The translations under genes and the position numbers were made by a program. A DNA stretch of 64,000 bases, from NCBI GenBank assembly GCA_015179125.1, contig WHVA01000303.1:62001-126000 (forward strand). Direction: 5' to 3'. Positions 40,371 through 52,497 of this stretch are shown here, one piece after another. Position 1 is the first letter of the stretch. Every line of letters begins with the position of its first letter. The notes beneath the pieces were generated by a model, which saw only the letters and a program-made list of their open reading frames with translations, did no database searches and was not told where the DNA came from. Source of the stretch: Gautieria morchelliformis (Eukaryota; Basidiomycota; Agaricomycetes; Gomphales; Gomphaceae).

Positions 40371-40840
40371 CGCTGCAGGTGGCGTTGATACATGTTACAA
40401 GATAATAATTTGGTTGCCGCGGGACGGGGAGCGGATGTCAATGCACAAGGAGGAGGGTCTGGCAATGCACTGCAGGCGGCGGCTAGCAGCTGCATGTAGC
40501 ACAGCACCAAACTCTCCTCCTTAAGTATTCACATCCACTCCCTTCTCCAGCAATAACCGTATGATCCCATCATCGGGTGTGAGTACAGGAGTACCGTATA
40601 GCCCAACGCGCTGCGAATGGCGGCGCCAGGAGGTCACATTGCCATCAATCAACTGCTGCTAGTGAGGAGTGCAGATGCGCACTCACTCGTTAGATGCTAC
40701 AGTGATTGCGCTGTTGCTGCTGATGATCCAAACGGACATGTATTAGTCCAAGGACTCTGGCACTCCTGCATGCGGCGTCCGCAGAGGTCACGCAAGACGA
40801 TCTTTCGAATGTCGTATGAGAATAAACGTCCAGGGAGGTG
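40371..40840 (+). pseudogene. Ankyrin-repeat remnant
   Basis: Pieces of ankyrin repeats of the fungal NALQAA type are visible in several frames. SALQVALIHV is at 40370-40400. GADVNAQGGGSGNALQAAAS is at 40430-40492. A GHIAINQLLL helix pair is at 40634-40665. A minus-strand reading gives LLLEKGVDVN at about 40525-40555, so part of the array is inverted or reads so by chance. Stops and frame changes throughout mean it is not functional. Such repeats usually belong to large NACHT-ankyrin proteins, but no NACHT domain is present here. Confidence 0.45.
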
Positions 40841-41174
40841 AATGTGGCAGGCAACTTGAGACGGCTTCTTATAAATGCGCCAATTGTTGCGCGCCGCAAG
40901 AATAGACAGTACTAATGGATAGCACCAAGCAAGCCAATTACTTTCTGCCTTCAATGTCGGCATCATGAGTGGCGGTTTGCACTCATGAGACCCACCACGA
41001 CGAGAAGACGCTGTACAGAATCGTGGAGGTGAATTAGGAAGAAACCGTTGTCGTAAACATTAATTATACGCTGTGGATTCCGATCGCTTGAGAAGTTTGG
41101 CAACAGACCAACATGCGCCTACATTGGCCCTAATGTTTGTGTGGCGTTGTGGATGAAGCGTGAGCGCTGGAGGT

Positions 41175-41325
41175 ACTAGAGTGCGCGGATTCGTCGCCTT
41201 CAATTTTAGGTGCATAATCTCGGGCATCACCCGAGGTCACATGACTCGTCAGATTTCGCCACTTGCAACTTACTTATACAAGCATCCCGCTCACTGATTC
41301 CCGGTGAAAAGAGGTTGTGCTGGGT
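41175..41325. repeat. Repeat R, copy without the TIR element
   Basis: Contains 'caattttaggtgcataatctc', a hairpin CTCGGGCATCACCCGAG, 'cagatttcgccacttgcaac', 'acaagcatcccgctc', then ACTGATT and 'cccggtgaaaag', and ends 'ggttgtgctgg'. The part up to 'cccgctc' matches the right flank of the TIR element (52277-52497, reversed). The part after ACTGATT matches the element's left flank (46982-47005, reversed). The TIR element therefore sits inside another copy of this repeat. Confidence 0.7.
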
Positions 41326-43800
41326 TCGGACGCCGTCGGACGCAAAATCTGCAAACTGCGCTAATCGGGCAGTATCTGCTCTCAAATCTGCGTATTTGGT
41401 AAACCCACTCGAAAAACTGAAATCCAACTACCTGAAACGACTGGGACTGCGACTTGGGCGCCAACATTTCTAAATTTTCGTAAAATCTACTTTGCTTTGC
41501 TTTGCTTTTGCTAGATTTTAACTGTGCTCGTACTTTGCTCGACTTGTACTGCAGCGCAGCAACTGCATAAACGCCACTAGAATGTCCAGTACCCTCTCTA
41601 AGTTGCACTGCACCTGTGAAAAGTACTGTAATGGTGGGAAATGGGTCTCTCGGGCAACCTGGTTCAGGCATGCGAATGATCGTACCAACAACAACATATC
41701 AGGATTCCAGCCAAGTGATCGAGAACGAATGAGTGGGGAGAATCAAATTGTCGCAGCATCTATAATGTAATGTATATGCCTTTGCATACTTCTATTTCAC
41801 CTTGCCACGGCCGTCGCGCTGTACGGGAATGAGGCCGTCGCTTGGCAGGCCGACATCGCTGATGCCATGCGCGAGGTCGAGGTCACAGCTCTCGAGAGCA
41901 TCACGGGCACGGGGGTGAAGAATGAGCAGCACGCGGCGTACGATGTGTATGTTCTGACCTCAATACCGACCCTTTCTTATTAGTGGTTCCTGTACAAGAT
42001 CGATAACATTGTACAGACACACTATGCTCTCCAAGCCGCGGCGTCGCCTGAAGCGGAAGGCCTCATAAAGACTGCCAAGGGACAGGGCTTTGCTGACAGG
42101 CAAACTCTCGTCTGTGCGGATGAAGCCACCTGCGACCCGCCCGCGTCTGGTCACGTGCTTCGCGTATGGTGGACTCTGGAACGCCCTGCACACACCACTT
42201 CTACACAACGTATAATGCACAGACACATGACGTTGGATTCGATGAGCATGGCACTATGGTCCTTGGGAGCCGTATTTACTGACACAGACTTAGAGGCGAC
42301 CAAAGGCACGCTGCATGCATCAGCATCTCGCCGCTACGCCATTGTCATGCATGATTGGGAAGTTCGTAGTTCATGCGCCTGGTGGAGGTTAGGGAGAATA
42401 TGATGAGACGCTCTGCATCGACGAGTCACTGCGAAATTGACACCGCACCCTCAAACGTAGCATGCATATGGCGATCGGTGCGCTTTCTAATTCTATGTAT
42501 TATTTTACATCCATGTGTTGACCTTGTTACCTATGCGTAGTAACGAACGGCGCGCGCGTAGGTATGGCCCGCACCCACTTGCGCACTGCGCGCCGTGCGT
42601 GCACACGCTCTCGCGTCGCTCCTCGCCCCCCCGCGCAGCGCCTGAGAGACTGGGTGTGCCCCGTTCCCTGCTGTTCCCTGTACCCCATGCCCTATACCCT
42701 ATGATATCTGACGCACAGTTCCCGGTCAGATGCACACGCACACATACACCGCGCGCACCGCACTCCGCCTCCTCCTCCCTTCCTGACGAAATGTAAAGAA
42801 AGAAGGTCCTTGTCAGAACCTGTGACGCCAATTTTAACTCAGAGTGTCGCTCACATATTAGACTCCTCGGAAATCCTGTCTAACAGTTTCCAACGCAATT
42901 CATAACAGTGTTAAAAAAAATGATGATATTTGGGGGGCTTTCGAAACCTTTTACGGCCGAAGCTCTATCTCGGCGTTGGCATCGGGATCCTGAGGATACT
43001 GTTTTGGAAGATCATCAGTGAGTACGACATGAACCCAATGTGCTTCCAGGAAAATCTGAAGAATAAGGTGCGGAGTTGAACTCTTCCAAACCAGAAGGAC
43101 AGCTTGAGAAAGCCGGTTAACGGCATGCCCAGGAACAGTCTATACCACAAGTGTTCGTTGACCCGAACAGCGCCGGTATGCGGGGGCAGAATGCGAGTAA
43201 CGTAATGATGGTCAAAGTTGACCAGGAGACAGTGGTTTGTCGGCCTTCTGCGTCTATCGCTGACAGGCAAGGCACTCGGATGATGATGGCGCGAGGTGCA
43301 GATATCTACGAGATATCGGAGGTGCGTTCAGACATTGGCATTTCAGTCAGCGCCATGGAGAGCGCACCAATCAGCCGTTGTCTACATTAGGTGCGCATCG
43401 AAAGGCCGATCCGTTTGCAACAACAATGTTCATGGCAGTAATTGATGATGGCTTCGGGCCATACAGAAAGCGGGTTTCTGCGTGAATCCGCACTGGGAGC
43501 GCGTCGTCAATGGGGATATCTGTTCAAGTGCTAGACGAGTTGATGAAGTCGCGGAGGTCAAGGTGATAAAAATGTTGCCAAGGTAAGCGCCTTCCGACTC
43601 CGATAAAATCATTGACACTGATCCTGGAAGTGGATATAGCACCATCGTGAATGATCTGCGAAGTGGACGTATAAGCTAACTCAGCGCCTAAAAGGGGCAA
43701 TGACGTGACCGACATCGAACCCCAACCCCGGCATGAAGTTTGAGAGTGTTTACGTTGAGATGAGCGTACGTATTATTTGCCCCAGTCTTTTCAATTACCC
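41326..43800. other. No gene recognised with confidence
   Basis: Open stretches at 41810-41960 plus 41980-42400 (plus strand; VALYGNEAVAWQADIADAMR), 42505-42831 (minus) and 42965-43645 (minus) were inspected. The first looks protein-like but ends in stops and has no family signature. The second is GC-rich with CGCGCGC runs. The third may be exons of an unknown minus-strand gene. None is supported well enough to call. Confidence 0.3.
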
Positions 43801-43810
43801 ACCACCACCA

Positions 43811-44191
43811 TGCCTGCAAAGAAACCTGTACAGTGCGTTATATTTTGCTCAGAATTGAAGCTTCCCGACGTGTCTGACTATTGTTACAGAGGTGTACTAC
43901 CGATAAACAGGTGACCTATATCAATTTCCATTGAAACTCCAACCTCACCGTGATCGTTGTAGGTCCACCGAAGATCCCTTTGTCGACTCAGATGCCGAGC
44001 GCGAGTGTTCTCAAATGAAAGATCGGGAGGGGGAGGAGCTATGCACCTCAAATTCATGGAGTTGGGAGTTATGGGTCAGTGAGGTCGACAGCGAGCTCAA
44101 AAGGTTCGAAGAACTAGTGGTGCGCCGGGAAAGAGAGCTGGCTCGATGGAGGAGGCGTCAGAAGATACTCAAGGCACGACTTGTCAGATAG
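43811..44191 (+). CDS. Small charged coiled-coil protein, tentative
   Basis: A possible three-exon gene starts MPAKKP at 43811. The last exon (about 43965-44191) encodes an acidic part (EDPFVDSDAERECSQMKDRE) followed by a heptad-like helix with RFEELVVRRERELARWRRRQ and ends at a TAG. Similar lysine-start, coiled-coil-end small proteins are common in agaricomycete genomes, often near transposons. The exon joins could not be made to keep one frame with certainty. Confidence 0.3.
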
Positions 44192-44351
44192 ACTAAATGT
44201 GATTCAAGTTACATACAATGTTAAATGCTGATGTATATGCTCAAGGTCAAACTTATAGTGCAATGTTGCGTTCTATTGAGTGACGTCACGCGTTCAATCA
44301 GTCTCTACCTCTTGCTACCAACCACAACCCAGGGTTCCCCTCTATAAGGCA

Positions 44352-46490
44352 ATGGCTGCGTTGCTCAATGACTCCATTGACCCAGCTCTGTCACCAGAGC
44401 TTGCCTTTTTCCCCGCCCCTCGCCTTGTTCAATCAGATTTGACTCCTGATGCTCTCAAGACCGATCTTCATCTTACACAACCCTCACAGATAGAGCTCTA
44501 TTCCTCATTTGCATCGGGTTCCTCTCAAGTCAACCACTTCACCGAGGTTGCGAATAGCAATGCTGCTACTGTTCATGACGTGCGTATATGTGTCTCATCA
44601 CTGTTCTCCGCTCTAAACCCCGCACGCTTCGTTTTGCAGCCCACTTTACAGCTCAACTCAGTACTTGGACTGGCCTCTCGTGACCAGCTCATAGCTGCAC
44701 GAAATGCCTGCATTTTATCTCTTGAATCCAAGCTGAAGGGTATCAAGTGAGTCATTTTCCGACGACATATCGCTACTCATATTATATGCAATTACTGCAG
44801 AGATTCTTACTTACTATTGCTGGTGAAGATCCAGGAGCCAAGATTTAACTCACCGTCAACTAAAATAGCCAATTGCAGTGACGAGGAAAATGTAATGACT
44901 GCGCAGCTCAATCGGTCTGATTACCCCAATGTACCTTATTGGACAAGATCCGATTGGGACCTTCGTGCCAATTCATCTGTCGGTATGCCTGAGGATGACA
45001 CAAATGCTAACAACGATTCACTTCCCTGCAAATCAATGGCGTTTATTACCACACGGGATGGCGCACCCACTACTAATGCCCAAGCAAGGGCTATCCGCAA
45101 GACCGAGCGCCATGTGTGGTCCGAGCTAGTCAAAACACGTACTGATCCAGTTTCCTGGGCCAAAGCGCCTATCTACACCCTAGATTTCTACCGTGACGAA
45201 ATGTACAAGCACCACCCCGATCTGCAATTATGTGAAGGCCATTGGAAGGCAGATCTGCTTGCCATACTCGACTACCCTTCCTGGCATAGGAACCTGAAGA
45301 ATTCTTCCATCCCGCTGAAAGTCAAGGTTGAACAGCCGCTCACATCACAGCCAGTAGCTCCACCTTCGACTATGCCTAGTAAGAAACGACATGTTTCTTC
45401 TTTACATGGGCCATGCAAGAAAAAGAAGCAAAATGACGGTGAGGCAACTAATTTGGCCCCTGGCACTGAGCCCGAGCCATCGTCACAGCCTCTGGTGACA
45501 AAAATTCTCGGTAGGTACTCACCGGCACCTTGGATGTGACTGATTCAGGTCCTGCCTTCCTAACAGGGGATTCTACGAACAAAAGAACACCGATCATCGT
45601 TGACAGCTTGGTTCACTCCGAACCGGCCGAGCCTGGATCCATCGCTCCAGATCCAGCTCCATCTACCACTCCACCTGATGCTGGGGACTCGCTCATGACC
45701 GATCACTCCATTGGGTCACCGGCGCCCCCCACTCCTGGACTCGGAGACTTTGTGGTTGCCGACATCCCGGTGAATGTTCAGTTCACGGTTCTGTCTCCTA
45801 CCCCTGAAGCCAAGCCGTTGGCTGCACCTTCAGTGCCAATCCTTGGTAGGTAGCCGCTAAATTTTTGACAAACTGATCAGGAAATTTCATTTATAGAAGG
45901 CTCCATTAGTACTGAAGAAGCCACCAAATTGTCGCCTGCTCTAACTGCCGCCTCTCCCGATGCCTCCATATTGGCAATACACAATCCTTTGTATGTCTCA
46001 CATAATCTGCATCCACTTACATATATAACAGCATTGTGTAGTGAGCTGAGGAATGGAGCATCGCTCCCAATCACCGATATATTGCCGAAAATGGTTCAAG
46101 CCACCTCAGCCGTTGCTGCATCGACTGGTGTGAAATCTCTGAAGCGGGCCTACTTCTACCCGGAGAAGAACAAGAATAATTCTCCTTTGTAAGTACTTCA
46201 TTTACAATTATTTCATTTACAGCTGATTAATATGCCGTTCTAGCAATCTCTTCGCAATAGACTACTGCCACACCCATTCCAAGTTATTTAAAGAGTCTGT
46301 TCAACAGGCCTATGATGCGTTGTGTCAGGATCTTAAAATGGTGCGTATGGATAGTTATCTTTGTAACTGATCATCTGACGATGTTCTCCAGCATTATATG
46401 GAGCTAAGTACATACAACAAGCTGAACAAACTCAAACCTCAGACGAGCATCGGCCCCGCAGGACCGATCACTCCCATTAGCCATTGGTGA
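44352..46490 (+). CDS. Conserved-looking fungal protein of unknown function (592 aa)
   Basis: Eight exons close a perfect frame of 593 codons: 44352-44579, 44640-44746, 44801-45510, 45549-45845, 45897-45990, 46042-46188, 46244-46340, 46392-46490; all introns are GT-AG and 38-63 nt long. The central part (NRSDYPNVPYWTRSDWDLRA, then IRKTERHVWSELVKTR, YRDEMYKHHPDLQLCEGHWK and LDYPSWHRN) resembles a family of unknown function that is abundant in agaricomycetes. It is followed by a nuclear-localisation-like KKKKQN cluster and a long Pro/Thr/Ser-rich region. No enzyme motif is seen. The gene is free of lesions and ends 516 bases before the alpha-kinase/integrase element. Nuclear location is inferred from the basic cluster only. 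Confidence 0.65.
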
Positions 46491-47005
46491 GCCGTAGTTC
46501 CTCATTTGATACCCTCACTGACAATATTTCATTTTATCTTACGAGTCTAGAATCTCTCCGATCGTGCTCCATCTCCACTTGCTCATGACCCCATGACCTG
46601 ACTCAGATTCCTGCACCATACGGCGTCGCTTTGTTCTTTCTGCTTCGACGGTTTGTGATGCTATTTTCACGGTAACTAGTATACATTAGCTACACTAGAA
46701 TCTGGTGTAGTCTGTTTATTAGCCATTTGCTAATAATATGCTCTAATCTGCTTTCTGCAAATGTTCTAAATAATATGCTCTAATCTGCTTTCTACAAATG
46801 TTCTAAATCTGTGCTGGTCTGTTTGTGTGAGAATACTATTTTAACAGATTTGCGCAGATTGAGCTGCGCAAAACTGTAGTTTCCCGGCGCTCGCGCTCTG
46901 CTCTCAGCTGCTATTGTCTCACTTATCTGCTCTGGCCGGACTTTTTTTGAGGGGGCATATTTTTCCCAATGCCGACAGATGCCAGCACAACCACTTTTCA
47001 CCGGG
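46491..47005. other. Intergenic; tandem duplication and left flank of the TIR element
   Basis: A direct duplication of 'aataatatgctctaatctgctttctrcaaatgttctaaat'-type sequence, about 39 bp, occupies 46733-46810. The last 24 bases (46982-47005, CCAGCACAACC...ACCGGG) belong to repeat R, into which the TIR element is inserted. No gene. Confidence 0.6.
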
Positions 47006-47006
47006 A

Positions 47007-47083
47007 CTGATTGTCAGTGATAACGAGACAATGTAAGTAGCTAGTAGGTCTGTATACCACCTTCAGGGCCGTCTTTGGTGAAG
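47007..47083 (+). repeat. Left 77-bp terminal inverted repeat
   Basis: Starts CTGATTGTCAGTGATAACGA and ends TCTTTGGTGAAG. It pairs with 52200-52276 at 72 of 77 positions. Differences are scattered substitutions, so the two ends have diverged slightly since transposition. Confidence 0.85.
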
Positions 47084-47267
47084 ACAAATACTGGTCTCAA
47101 CTGCTTGCGGCCTACCCCAAATGCAATCGCGGCAATTATAACACCGAAGTACCTTCTTCCCGCTTCTGAAGCTTTCTAGCTGGCTAGTCATCCTTCTTGC
47201 CGCTTCTAAAGCTTTCTAGCTGGCTAGTCACTGCTGAGGCAACCCTGACAGTTCTGTATGGTTTAAA

Positions 47268-50200
47268 ATGCGCTGCAAGGAATGCCCACATCACACAGTC
47301 CGGTGTTTTTCAATGGTTGAGGACATCTCTAAAGCTCATGCAGTTCCATGCGGTGGTGCAGATAATGACCTCGACGGCTGCCAACGTACTTTCCCACGTG
47401 CTACCACTGATCTCTGTAGAAAGTGCAAAAAGCTTTCAGAGACGACACTGTTGGACATCGATCGAGAGCATGTGTTGGTGAGTTGTTAAAACTAGCCCTT
47501 CACCTGCATTACACTAATGATTTCTGGAGGCTATGAAGCAGTGTGCCCAATGTGGCATCTTTGGCACCTATATTACCGACCCATGTGGAACTTGTGAGAC
47601 TAAAGGTAAGTGCTATAAAGTTCTCACGGAGTTCAACTGCTTTTATCGATCTGCCTTACAGCTCGGAAAGAAGACAATCTCAGTAATCCTGAGAAAGACA
47701 TAGCAAAAGAACGCTGACTGTCATTGATCCAGAGCCGGGTTGGGCAAGATAGACAGAGCATACAGGGTAATATGGCTTCAACCCATGCTCCAGGCCCGAA
47801 CACACCTCAGTCCGAGCTCGAAAACATACGCACTAACACATTGAAGGCCACGTGGACGGTAACATGTGAAGTACGGCTAAGTACCAATCCCAAAGCGGTC
47901 AGTCGTGAGTTAGGATCAGGATCGCTGACGTTTAATGGTGATCAAACTATGCCCGGTGAGATGTTCAATGATGTCTATCCTCATATACTTATATTATGTT
48001 TTTAAGAGGTTCTTGAGTCCTTGGTGTATCAAATAACGCCGCAATGGACCAAGCGGCTTGGTCACCTGTATGAACTTCACCCGTGAGTTCATTCTTGCTG
48101 CCAAATGTTGCATCACCTGGCTAGGTACTCATGAACATCAGTGATGATTGTGAGATTCAATTCCGGGATAACAAGACTTTGAAAAAGGACACAGAAACAT
48201 TGAGCATCCAAAAGCTCTATGAATTTTATTCAAGGGGCGCCGATCGTGCCTTCTACCTCACCGATCATCGGGGCACTGCAAAGCTTCCAAAAGGGTCATA
48301 TCTATGCCTTGAAGTATTCATCAATGTCCAGAAGGTTGGTGCTGTTTTGTATGATTTGTTATGACTAAGTACAAAGCAATCAGTACCTGGCTCGTACCGG
48401 AGAAGGGGGCAATGAAGACTTCGGCTTGCAAGTGAGTATGCCTCAGCGTGGTCAAAAGTCAGGCCCTGGTGGGGCACGTGGTGGCTACAAGGCTCGCTTT
48501 GTGTCTGCTCCAGCTACCAAGCGCACTAGGGGTGAGTGCTGGCATGTATTACTGTTTTATTTTCCTGACCTCATGTGACAGGGTCAAGCATCCACCGCAG
48601 TGATTTTATTGATCATGACTTGAAAGCGATCCTGCCTATGAAATGTTACGTATCGAGATTTCCGCTAAGTCGGAACTGGAAAGGACAGCGGCTTCAACTT
48701 GTAGGTTGCGCCCCCAATGAACTATCGTCCTAAGTATTTTGGAACTGAGTCGGAAGTCGGAAAGTACTGAACCAAAGGTTTGGTCGGAACTTGAGTCGGA
48801 ACTGAGGCGGAAGGCGGAAGACGGAAGGCGGAGAGACTGAGATCTTGCTAGACTCGCTGTGCTAAGAACAGGAGATGGAGCGAAGGAAATCAAGTATCGA
48901 AGGCGATTATCTGATTGCAGAATAAGAGACATACATGAGGGGGGTTTTATACAAAGAGCTGAGACAACAGGTAATGATATGGTACTAAGCAAATTCTGGA
49001 GGAAGCGGAAGTCGAGTAGACAATGCGTGGGAACTAACTATTGGGAACAATGGGACTACATGGGGGGTTCAGGGTAAGGTAGAACAATGGCAAAGAACAA
49101 GGGGTGGGGAAAACATATCTGACAACGAAACACAAGGAGGCCAGTCATGTGGTCTTGATGAACGGTGAGGTGGGTCCGGTGGGTCCGAGAAATAGAGTCG
49201 AAAGAACAAGGAAAATGTACAAGGGGCGGAATGTCGGAAATATCGGAGGGGCGGAATGTGTTGCGGAAATATCGTAGGGGCGGAAGGTGTTGCGGAACTG
49301 AGGGTCGGAAGTCGGAAATGAACGGTCGTAACATGAAAGAAGGAGGTGCCGCACACACAATTAAATTCAAGAAGACCACATGCTCAGTCGATCCAGCCTC
49401 CAAGCGGCCTAATATTACTGAGCATGAAGAAATTCTCAGTGGCCTTCTGAACGATAGTCCAATCATCTTAGCGGCTGCGTATCAAGGGCGCTCTAAAGAT
49501 GTATTCAAGGTACGTAGTGGTCAGTGTAATCTGTTTCATTTCTTACAGCGTTTCAGCTTATCATAGGACAACAAACATACGCTGCCAAACGTTCAGGGGA
49601 TCCAAAGATGCCATACATGAATACCCTGTATATAATGAGTTGCTGTTTGAGCTGGCTTGTGTCCAAAGGCTTGCATCATTCACTGAGGAGTTTTTTGAGG
49701 AAGTACGGGGACAAGGCATCGAAGTAGAAGGTAATTAATATCAGTAAACTGATATTTCAGTAGCTCATGATCATTGTCAGCTTTTACCATCACCGAGGCT
49801 TTCATTATCCAAGTTGTTCAAGAGACGGCTGAAGACATCAATCATGCCTACCTTGTTGAGCCCTTACGGTCTTCAACTGCTACAATTAAGTTTTCAGGTA
49901 CACTGACGAACCGAGTGGCATCTGGGAGACGGGCAGCAGGGGTAGGTGCCTTTGCACATTGGGTACTTGAACGTACGGGGTGAAAATTCTTGTTTGTAGA
50001 TCTGCAAGGTCAGCTTTGCTATGGTCTCCTCTGCAAGAAAACTGACTAACCTCACAAACAGGCAATATCAATGTTGTGAATCAGGTGGCCACATTAACAT
50101 TATTTGATCCTCAGTCCCACAGCGTAACTGCGTAAGTAACTCATTACCGTACTTACCAATGCTAACTCAGACTGGCAACTATGCAGCAAATCGGGGAGTG

Positions 50201-50391
50201 GTGATCATGGCCCTGAAGGTATACAAGCTTTTATAGACAGCCATTGCTGCACAGCAGTCTGCCACTCGATGCAACTTCTCCCGGTGGAAGACATGAATGA
50301 AACATTTACACGGGTCCTTGAAGATAACCAGGCTGAAGAGGTGGCGCAGCTGGATATGCCTCTTGAACTGGGTAAATTTGTGGAGGATTGA
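47268..50391 (+). pseudogene. Alpha-kinase (MHCK/EF2K family) with zinc-finger N-terminus, disrupted
   Basis: Alpha-kinases are atypical Ser/Thr kinases, expanded in many agaricomycetes. The gene has about a dozen exons. Exon 1 (47268-47477) and exon 2 carry Cys pairs (CKEC, CRKC; CAQC and CGTC). A basic linker (QRGQKSGPGGARGGYKARF) follows, then the kinase: QQTYAAKR, VYNELLFELACVQRL, YLVEPLRSSTATIKFSGTL, AFAHWVLERTG, FLFVDLQG, and the C-terminal GSGDHGPEGIQAFIDSHCCT with the glycine-rich loop and the H..C..C zinc ligands. Lesions: TGA at 47715-47717 and 49981-49983, a one-base shift near 49600, and a 690-bp solo LTR after 48643. All splice sites otherwise keep frame, so inactivation is young. 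Stop at 50389-50391. Confidence 0.75.
48644..49333 (-). mobile_element. Solo LTR inside the alpha-kinase gene, TSD TGAAA
   Basis: 690-bp LTR reading TGTTACGACCG...CGATACGTAACA on the minus strand, flanked by an exact TGAAA (48639-48643 and 49334-49338). It contains the promoter 'ctttgtataaaac' on minus (48945-48957) and dense CGGAA motifs. Same family as 825-1555. Setting aside the LTR and one TGAAA restores the kinase reading frame without a gap (Pro-Met-Lys, then Glu-Gly-Gly), proving that it entered an open gene. Confidence 0.92.
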
Positions 50392-50538
50392 TACCTTCAA
50401 GGTGATGAAGGCCTTCAAAGCCCCCCAATCATCAAGCTTGTGTAGGCTTTGTCTGCAAGCAGAAATAGCTTTACTTGTTACACAATATGCCTTACTCCAA
50501 CTGCTTCAAAAACCTTATTTATTTGTCCGTGTGATCAC

Positions 50539-52195
50539 TCACATACGCAGACGACGGATCAGTGCTAGCACTGCTGCAAACATGTCCCATGCTGTAGCTA
50601 GTGTGATTTCAGGGGACCCCAGATTGATCCATGCATGGTCTGCCTCCGCCTGAAACTCACAAGAAATAAAATGAAAGGCTCTCTCACATCCCTCCTCACC
50701 TCCAAGTGCCTCCCTGAATCATGTCACCATGCCAGGATCCACACGCACAGAGCAGTCATGTGCATCAGGTCGTGCACTCGTAGGAATATGGAATGCCTGA
50801 CGTGGTGTAACACCAGAGGCACCGTTTTTACCTTTTTGCTTGCGAATCCTATGTGAGTTCCAGTAGTCATGATATAGATCAAGCCGCTCTTGAACAAGGG
50901 GCGGCCAGAGCCAATAAAAAACTTCACTAGTCTCGGGATATGTTCTAATTGTCTCACATTTGCACTTCATCATTAGGATTGAAGCATCCACTGTCACGTC
51001 CAGCTAAAAGAACATGGCGAAGAGTGTGGCCTTCACCATTCTGTTTCCAGCGCCAGAATCCTTCGATTGGTGTGTTGCGAGTGCTGGGCAACTGTATGGC
51101 TGGTGGCCATTTATCAAGTAGATACTCAGGTGCCGCTTGAAGCCTATTTGTATGCATGACCATATAGACTCATTGAAATAGATATATTATGTACTCACCT
51201 CAAGCTCTCTTGAATACGACACATTTCCCCCGTTTCACTTCCCTTGTCCGTGATATCCTGGAGTCCAATGCGGTCTTACATGGCAATTGCTGTAGTTTAT
51301 AACTATCCAAGGAACTAAACATTACTTACAGTCATGCACCTCAATCAAATCCAGTTTGTAGTGCGCGATTGCTTGTTCAAGGCGAACATTCGGCATTGTG
51401 ACGAGGCCAAGTATATAGTTGGAAAATTGATCCTTACTTCCATAGATAGGTAAACCTACCCCTCCCATTTCAAGTGCCTGACTACCGAGTTTCTCATGTC
51501 CGTCATGATTGAGTTTGTGCCATGGGCCGAAAGTTCGCAGTGGAGCGCGAGTTATCTCTTTTTGAGCTCCCGGAAAACGTTCGAACTCAGGGTCAAAGTG
51601 ATCATGAAGAATCTGGCGACATTCATCTCTGTTTGACAGAATTAGAGACTACGAAGCATAATCAAAAACAACTTTTGTGTACCATGATAAGTACGTGTCC
51701 TCATTCGCAAGTCTCCCTCGGGTCTGTTCTACTCCCCATAGACCTGCCACATCATGCTCCTTCATGTTGAGAACAGCTTGCACCTTCTCTTCAGGTGCCA
51801 ACGCATTGTTCCGCATAGTGGGGATATTGAGCCGGCGCCGAAGTTTGTATAAGGTCGTTTCTCTACAAAGCACTTGTTCTGAAATCTTCACAGGAAAATA
51901 AAAGTTGTTGACATACCCTATAACTATATTGAACTCCTCTTTGAGGCGCTCCAGTTGCTGCGGCGCTGTCAACCTCTCGCGGGTGTACTGTTTAAATGAG
52001 GCTGTAAGAATGCCATCCTCCGGATCTAGATAAGAAAATATGTGAGTTATCTTTGCCGCACTCAAAAAATAAAACATACAGTTTTTTGGACCGTACTGGT
52101 TTGTGCCTTCGACGTTTGGCATAGCGAGCGTGTACGTCTGGTCGACCAATTCGAGGATTAGCACCCAAATAACAAGAGTGTCGAGACGATAGTAC
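50539..52195 (-). pseudogene. Integrase-core (rve-like) protein of a fungal TIR element
   Basis: Matches the large agaricomycete family annotated as integrase core domain protein, a DDE-type enzyme that probably cuts and joins element ends. Segments in order: LDPEDGILTASF, IVIGYVNNFYFPVKI, TLYKLRRRLNIPT (helix-turn-helix region), DVAGLWGVEQ, then LNHDGHEKLGSQAL and MGGVGLPIYGSKDQFS (first Asp region), DITDKGSETGEM (second Asp), NTPIEGFWRWKQ (the Glu) and FYWLWPPLVQERLDLYHDYW. The tail ends LATAWDMFAAVLALIRRLRM. One in-frame TGA (50719-50721) precedes the last 59 codons. A break near 50960 is either a 31-nt intron or a frameshift. Introns at about 52080-52025 and 51270-51170. No ATG is obvious before 52195, so the start is uncertain. 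Confidence 0.7.
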
Positions 52196-52199
52196 TTTT

Positions 52200-52276
52200 C
52201 TTTACCGAAGACGGCCCTGAAGGTAGTATACAGACCTACTAGCTACTTACGCTGTCTCGTTATCACTGACAATCAG
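52200..52276 (-). repeat. Right 77-bp terminal inverted repeat
   Basis: Reverse complement of 47007-47083 with five substitutions. It ends GACAATCAG at 52276 and is followed by repeat R. Confidence 0.85.
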
Positions 52277-52497
52277 TGAGCGGGATGCTTGTATAAGTAA
52301 GTTGCAAGTGGCGAAATCTGACAAGTCATGTGACCTCGGGTGATGCCCGAGATTATGCACCTAAAATTGAAGCGCGATGCTTGTATAAGTAAGTTGCAAG
52401 TGGCGAAATCTGACAAGTCATGTGACCTCGGGTGATGCCCGAGATTATGCACCTAAAATTGAAGCGCGATGAATCTGCGCACTCTAGCCTGGGAGTC
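52277..52497. repeat. Repeat R, tandemly duplicated copy flanking the TIR element
   Basis: Two head-to-tail copies of a 95-base unit (about 52281-52375 and 52376-52470), starting 'gcgcgatgcttgtataagta' and ending 'cacctaaaattgaa', followed by 'gcgatgaatctgcgcactctag'. The two copies are almost identical, so duplication is recent. A single reversed copy lies at 41175-41325. The hairpin CTCGGGTGATGCCCGAG is in each unit. Confidence 0.8.

Follow-up and report, generated by a model that had tools for sequence, protein, structure and literature searches.

In the IS3EU elements of rusts described in the cited sections of Kojima 2025 (PMC12730594), the transposase gene is oriented opposite to an alpha-kinase gene, and a TET/JBP gene lies between the two. 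These TET-positive elements have 6-bp target site duplications (TSDs) and the ends TAYGG..CCRTA. According to the corresponding part of Kojima 2023 (PMC10045372), the termini of complete IS3EU families are always TA..TA, and their TSDs usually measure 6 bp. Here, we analyzed a stretch of 64,000 nucleotides from Gautieria morchelliformis (C342:62001-126000, hereafter the window), and searched the genome to which it belongs (122 Mb, 1113 contigs). G. morchelliformis is a mycorrhizal, truffle-like agaricomycete. The window contains an element with two convergent genes, encoding a DDE integrase and an alpha-kinase, between long terminal inverted repeats (TIRs). The best explanation, to which we give a probability of about 0.78, is an IS3EU-like DNA transposon of the cut-and-paste type with the alpha-kinase as its standing second gene. 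Long TIRs, TA..TA tips, TSDs in some copies, multicopy families, a fixed convergent gene order and conserved catalytic motifs are all observed.

The oppositely oriented transposase and alpha-kinase genes in one TIR element with TA..TA ends are shared with the rust elements, as far as these are described in PMC12730594. Unlike the rust elements, no TET/JBP gene is present between the genes here. The kinase (+) and the integrase (-) of the window copy converge, as the initial annotation proposed, with 93 bp between their mapped stop codons. The DDE integrase without the known HHCC zinc domain and the TA..TA termini are also features of IS3EU and GingerRoot in the cited part of PMC10045372. The TSDs are 7 or 5 bp, whereas they are 6 bp in the rust elements and usually 6 bp in IS3EU/GingerRoot. 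For this reason, the element is designated IS3EU-like and is not filed as a member of IS3EU. KDZ, Plavaka and other transposons with TET/JBP dioxygenases are likewise fungal transposons with an extra enzyme gene, but their transposases are different, and the enzyme is an epigenetic one and not a kinase (PMC12730594, cited sections).

It was initially assumed that no described element carries an integrase together with an alpha-kinase. This is superseded by section 4.1 of PMC12730594, where IS3EU elements of rusts are published that have both a transposase and an alpha-kinase. In the literature on alpha-kinases with transposons, on IS3EU/Ginger and on fungi, this is the only paper among the matches listed that joins a transposon and an alpha-kinase. 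Three points are new here: a form without TET, the abundance of this form in an agaricomycete, and the location of most alpha-kinase matches of one genome beside such integrases.

A profile search revealed 56 alpha-kinase matches (PF02816) genome-wide. With one integrase query (P0006), chosen for its homology irrespective of position, 32 of them lie within 5 kb of an integrase, 30 in convergent orientation; the random expectation is 0.29. Adding a second integrase query, which came from an element with a kinase, increases the number to 39 (random expectation 0.40), with 35 convergent, 3 divergent, and 1 tandem pairs. These pairs bear out the earlier idea that the kinase is a regular partner in a TIR element. 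Seen from the other side, a kinase is found within 5 kb of 41 of the 80 integrase loci. When two kinase queries are added, 57 of 77 kinase loci and 57 of 80 integrase loci are paired (53 of the 57 pairs convergent); these queries were chosen from pairs, and the proportions are thus not an independent sample. A hand-compiled set of 64 other rva_4 loci, taken from the matches listed, served as a control; for all of them, the closest alpha-kinase match is at least 28 kb away. The kinase-integrase unit exceeds chance. The adjacency of most alpha-kinase matches to such an integrase suggests that these belong to transposons rather than to the ordinary genes of the host.

Three kinase-integrase pairs (C194, C559, and C654) are arranged head-to-head, and possibly represent a second architecture or rearranged copies. 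Six alpha-kinase matches (C162, C208, C247, C547, C620, and C642) have a common profile span of 72-145 and a 122-aa open frame, with no related integrase within 5 kb. They are perhaps another mobile or host family.

Based on kinase DNA similarity, the top 30 of the 56 kinase matches are classified into five families, and none of them is single-copy: A (11 members), B (10), C (4), E (3), and D (2). An integrase is located within 5 kb in 9/11 members of family A, 10/10 of B, 3/4 of C, 1/2 of D, and 0/3 of E. Families A (L065) and B (L067) are represented by whole elements with TA..TA tips. The element and family A are 46% identical in the kinase and 54% in the integrase. Family B is more distant from both, with 30-31% identity over 102-112 residues in the kinase and 27-29% in the integrase. 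This one concordant split of both genes, the element and family A against family B, fits joint inheritance as judged from the sequences.

The stretches of the family E kinases (L095, L059, L055, and L053) gave no match in tblastn with five integrases. C235, C515, and C270 (L055, L059, and L053) carry a multicopy alpha-kinase family with no integrase detected in the stretches searched. One family A kinase-integrase pair is seen at C342:11323-15598, on the same contig but outside the window. Two copies of family B (L050 and L051; C332:35824-39183 and 40635-43994) are inverted, a few kb apart and 99.94% identical, which may be a recent inverted duplication or an assembly artefact. The proposal that the elements multiply alpha-kinases is supported for a part of the genome, with the top 30 kinase matches in five repeat families; 17 of the 56 kinase matches have no integrase nearby.

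Copies of the element itself were searched for with its TIR, and seven other loci were found; three short tip matches (C142, C243, and C227:462663) are left out of this count. Both gene halves are present in L009 and L011, and the integrase plus part of the kinase in L010 and L014. L012 and L015 contain the kinase without the integrase, and L013 is a short fragment of the integrase end with no kinase. Kinase sequence is kept in six of the seven loci (L009-L012, L014, and L015); a set of TIR copies devoid of the kinase, by which the initial annotation would have dismissed the pairing as a chance capture, was not found. The similarity between copies is 95-98% across the entire unit.

The TA..TA tips are present in the element (C1048, C160, and the window), family A (C493), and family B (C637). 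The ends of families A and B begin with TACGG. The TSD of the element at C1048 is AGCTATG (7 bp). Family A at C493, the one copy with both ends, is flanked by ACCGCTG (7 bp), and five other copies gave one end. All four complete pairs of family B ends have 5-bp TSDs: CGCAG (C637), CTTAA (C250), CCCGG (C327), and CCTGG (C565). The TSD lengths of these related elements (L065, L067, and L009) lie on either side of the usual 6 bp of IS3EU.

The copy at C1048 is uninterrupted. It occupies L009 2156-6937 (~4.8 kb), and has the same anatomy as the window copy and an open kinase frame. Its kinase is 654 aa with 10 introns and its integrase 418 aa with 6 introns in the hand models. A trained gene finder gave 651 aa and 424 aa, an agreement that is a consistency check only, because it was trained on these hand models. 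Public models agree with the hand models over most of their length: P0001 (C227) for the kinase, with 96% identity over 448 columns, and P0004, from the window's contig, for the integrase.

The C1048 kinase passes the cut-off of Pfam Alpha_kinase (PF02816; 75.2 bits, E 9e-21, cut-off 21.3). It resembles eEF2 kinase (eEF2K), ALPK1, and myosin heavy chain kinase A in the C-terminal part of its catalytic domain, which carries VDLQG and DPQ motifs. Among solved structures, eEF2K is the nearest relative (E 7.8e-7, residues 521-599), followed by ALPK1 and myosin heavy chain kinase at E 1e-4. Unlike in these kinases, the gene is inside a transposon, and the Cys-rich N-terminal half is matchless. The predicted structure of this N-terminal part, with a predicted local distance difference test score (pLDDT) of 32, is not a usable model. 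The zinc-finger N-terminus suggested in the initial annotation is visible as a Cys-rich stretch, but all Pfam zinc-finger models remain below their cut-offs there. In four families with 22-49% identity to the element, the D and Q of VDLQ do not vary, and neither do the D and P of FDP. We take these residues to be the conserved catalytic motif residues of alpha-kinases.

The C1048 integrase scores 21.4 bits with the rva_4 integrase core of Pfam (PF24764), below the cut-off of 26. The relatives from family A (P0006) and family B pass this cut-off with 27.9 and 31.3 bits, respectively. The D, D, and E of the DDE core are invariant in an alignment of 26 integrases. The predicted structure of the integrase (pLDDT 79) has its best PDB matches in retroviral integrases, TnsB, and IstA; the TM-scores by query length are low, at ~0.2-0.3. 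The profile of the 26 integrases had no match among PDB sequences. In an NCBIfam scan of four integrases, the one match was to an IS3 family transposase, far below the cut-off.

A fused kinase-integrase was sought in the over-long integrase matches P0012, P0034, P0046, P0051, P0056, P0068, and P0084, and none of them has PF02816 at E 0.01. Kinase protein searches, limited by shared words, returned three proteins only, all of G. morchelliformis, and the integrase profile found no relative in IMG/VR and GTDB contigs. Since the kinase matches are all from this species and the contig scans were empty, a wider spread rests on the literature.

Constraint on the genes was estimated by the ratio of nonsynonymous to synonymous substitution rates (dN/dS), computed for the element against the C1048 model. 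The kinase values are 0.53 (L011), 0.46 (window), 0.42 (L010), 0.15 (L012), 0.40 (L014), and 0.36 (L015). The integrase values are 0.28-0.72 in five copies. Ten other copies of family A have kinase values of 0.22-0.57.

The window copy is a decayed member of the element, interrupted by insertions (Table 1). The inner inverted-repeat arms (47006-47092 and 52191-52277) are 87 nt long and 92% complementary, while the full inverted repeat is 178-205 bp in the copies at C1048, C160, and C227, and an outer left arm of the window copy is found at 41177. The 87-nt arms are therefore only the inner part of the TIR, and the element extends over 41177-52487 with a nested element inside its left repeat. 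The unit is thus larger than initially annotated, when 77-bp repeats were considered as its boundaries. Nor are its genes complete, as they had appeared. Compared with the C1048 model, the integrase has one premature stop; in the kinase, a 690-bp insertion is accompanied by one frameshift and three premature stops.

Table 1. Components of the decayed element and its insertions, in positions of the window
Feature	Position	Strand	Basis or remark
Complete element including nested insertions	41177-52487	.	TIR tip TAGAGTGCGCGG at 41177; right tip ends CGCACTCTA near 52487
Left TIR, outer part, severed from the remainder by the nested element	41177-41299	+	Match C342:103177-103310 and insertion junction
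Nested 5706-bp element with 24-bp TIR (CCCGGTGAAAAG...), foreign to the original transposon	41300-47005	.	ACTGATT duplicated on flanks
Left TIR, inner part, kinase side	47006-47092	+	Inverted-repeat comparison within the window
Alpha-kinase gene, broken in the window copy, 11 exons	47268-50445	+	Mapped from the C1048 model
690-bp insertion inside the kinase, TIR TGTTACG, ATGAAA duplicated on flanks	48644-49333	.	
DDE integrase (rva_4-like) gene, 7 exons, one premature stop	50539-52122	-	Mapped from the C1048 model
Right TIR, integrase side	52191-52487	-	Holds a 92-bp tandem duplication at 52279-52462

A 148-bp stretch at the left end of the nested element has 42 genome matches. The 690-bp insertion is similar to miniature inverted-repeat transposable elements, and a 92.5% copy of it is found in L014 (2090-2770). 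The public model P0003 (897 aa) at the window locus is a chimera: it combines nested-element frames with a portion of the kinase and terminates within the 690-bp insertion.

Several observations weigh against an IS3EU-like transposon with a standing kinase gene. Among the three element copies with both tips, a TSD is present only at C1048; there is none at C160, and a comparison of the flanks of the window copy revealed no target duplication. The TSD lengths of 7 or 5 bp deviate from the 6 bp usual in IS3EU. With two integrase queries, 17 of 56 kinase loci and 39 of 80 integrase loci lack a partner; after the addition of the kinase queries, the numbers are 20 of 77 and 23 of 80, respectively. 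Copies of the same family are not independent events, and the random expectations given above are thus a rough guide only. The dN/dS of the family B kinase is 0.73-1.11, near 1, in nine comparisons with a rough gene model. Movement of the kinase and the integrase as one unit was not directly observed.

Chance capture, a single pick-up of a host alpha-kinase gene by one element, would agree with the close database matches of the kinase protein being restricted to G. morchelliformis, but those matches come from the searches limited by shared words. The identical convergent pairing is seen in several divergent families and also in the IS3EU elements of rusts (PMC12730594, cited sections), which makes such a capture extremely improbable, and it was rejected as contradicted by the 39 of 56 kinase matches paired with an integrase. 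If host alpha-kinase genes were multicopy for other reasons and transposons were inserted nearby, the 17 kinase matches with no related integrase within 5 kb would be accounted for. This is very improbable and was also rejected, as the kinase is inside the TIRs of whole copies (C1048, families A and B), 35 of 39 pairs are convergent, and the high similarity between copies runs through the entire unit.

The kinase might be mere cargo, useless to the element and drifting after capture. The broken kinase in the window and the dN/dS of family B, with its rough model, point in this direction. Against it stand the invariant VDLQ and FDP residues in the four divergent families, and the dN/dS of the kinase in the element (0.15-0.53) and family A, which is similar to that of the integrase; drifting cargo is quite unlikely. 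It is unlikely, too, that the kinase acts on host translation through eEF2 and helps the element indirectly, for example under stress. Although eEF2K is the best match among solved structures, this match is limited to the C-terminal portion of the domain, the next matches are ALPK1 and myosin heavy chain kinase, and the first 400 kinase residues are unrelated. The similarity to eEF2K does not fix the kinase substrate.

If the element is an IS3EU-like transposon with a standing kinase gene, the DDE integrase would move the element, and the alpha-kinase would belong to the transposon lineage as its second gene. In C1048, the ATG of the kinase is 136 bp and that of the integrase 68 bp inside the edge of the respective TIR. 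With each TIR directly upstream of one gene at such short distances, the repeats may supply both genes with near-identical promoters. The kinase could aid the spread of the element through phosphorylation of either the transposase or a host factor involved in silencing or translation. A kinase serving the element via the transposase or a host factor is the most likely function.

It can be speculated, at roughly even odds, that the alpha-kinase is an ancestral second transposition factor and not cargo, co-inherited with the integrase since before the families split, and perhaps before the separation of agaricomycetes and rusts. The same speculation includes that the alpha-kinase expansions of basidiomycetes, above all of rusts, consist mostly of transposon genes rather than of genes for host signalling. 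The alpha-kinase family is called "highly expanded in the rusts" in the cited passage of PMC4469406. In the cited part of a rust genome paper (PMC5295586), PF02816 is enriched under "protein modification", and the enriched domains are jointly read as adaptation. The elements described here offer a mechanical cause for fungal alpha-kinase expansions. If it is true that the expanded alpha-kinases of rusts are transposon genes, adaptation-type readings would change. The elements also raise a testable question: is transposition, or host silencing or translation, under the control of a protein kinase encoded by the transposon?

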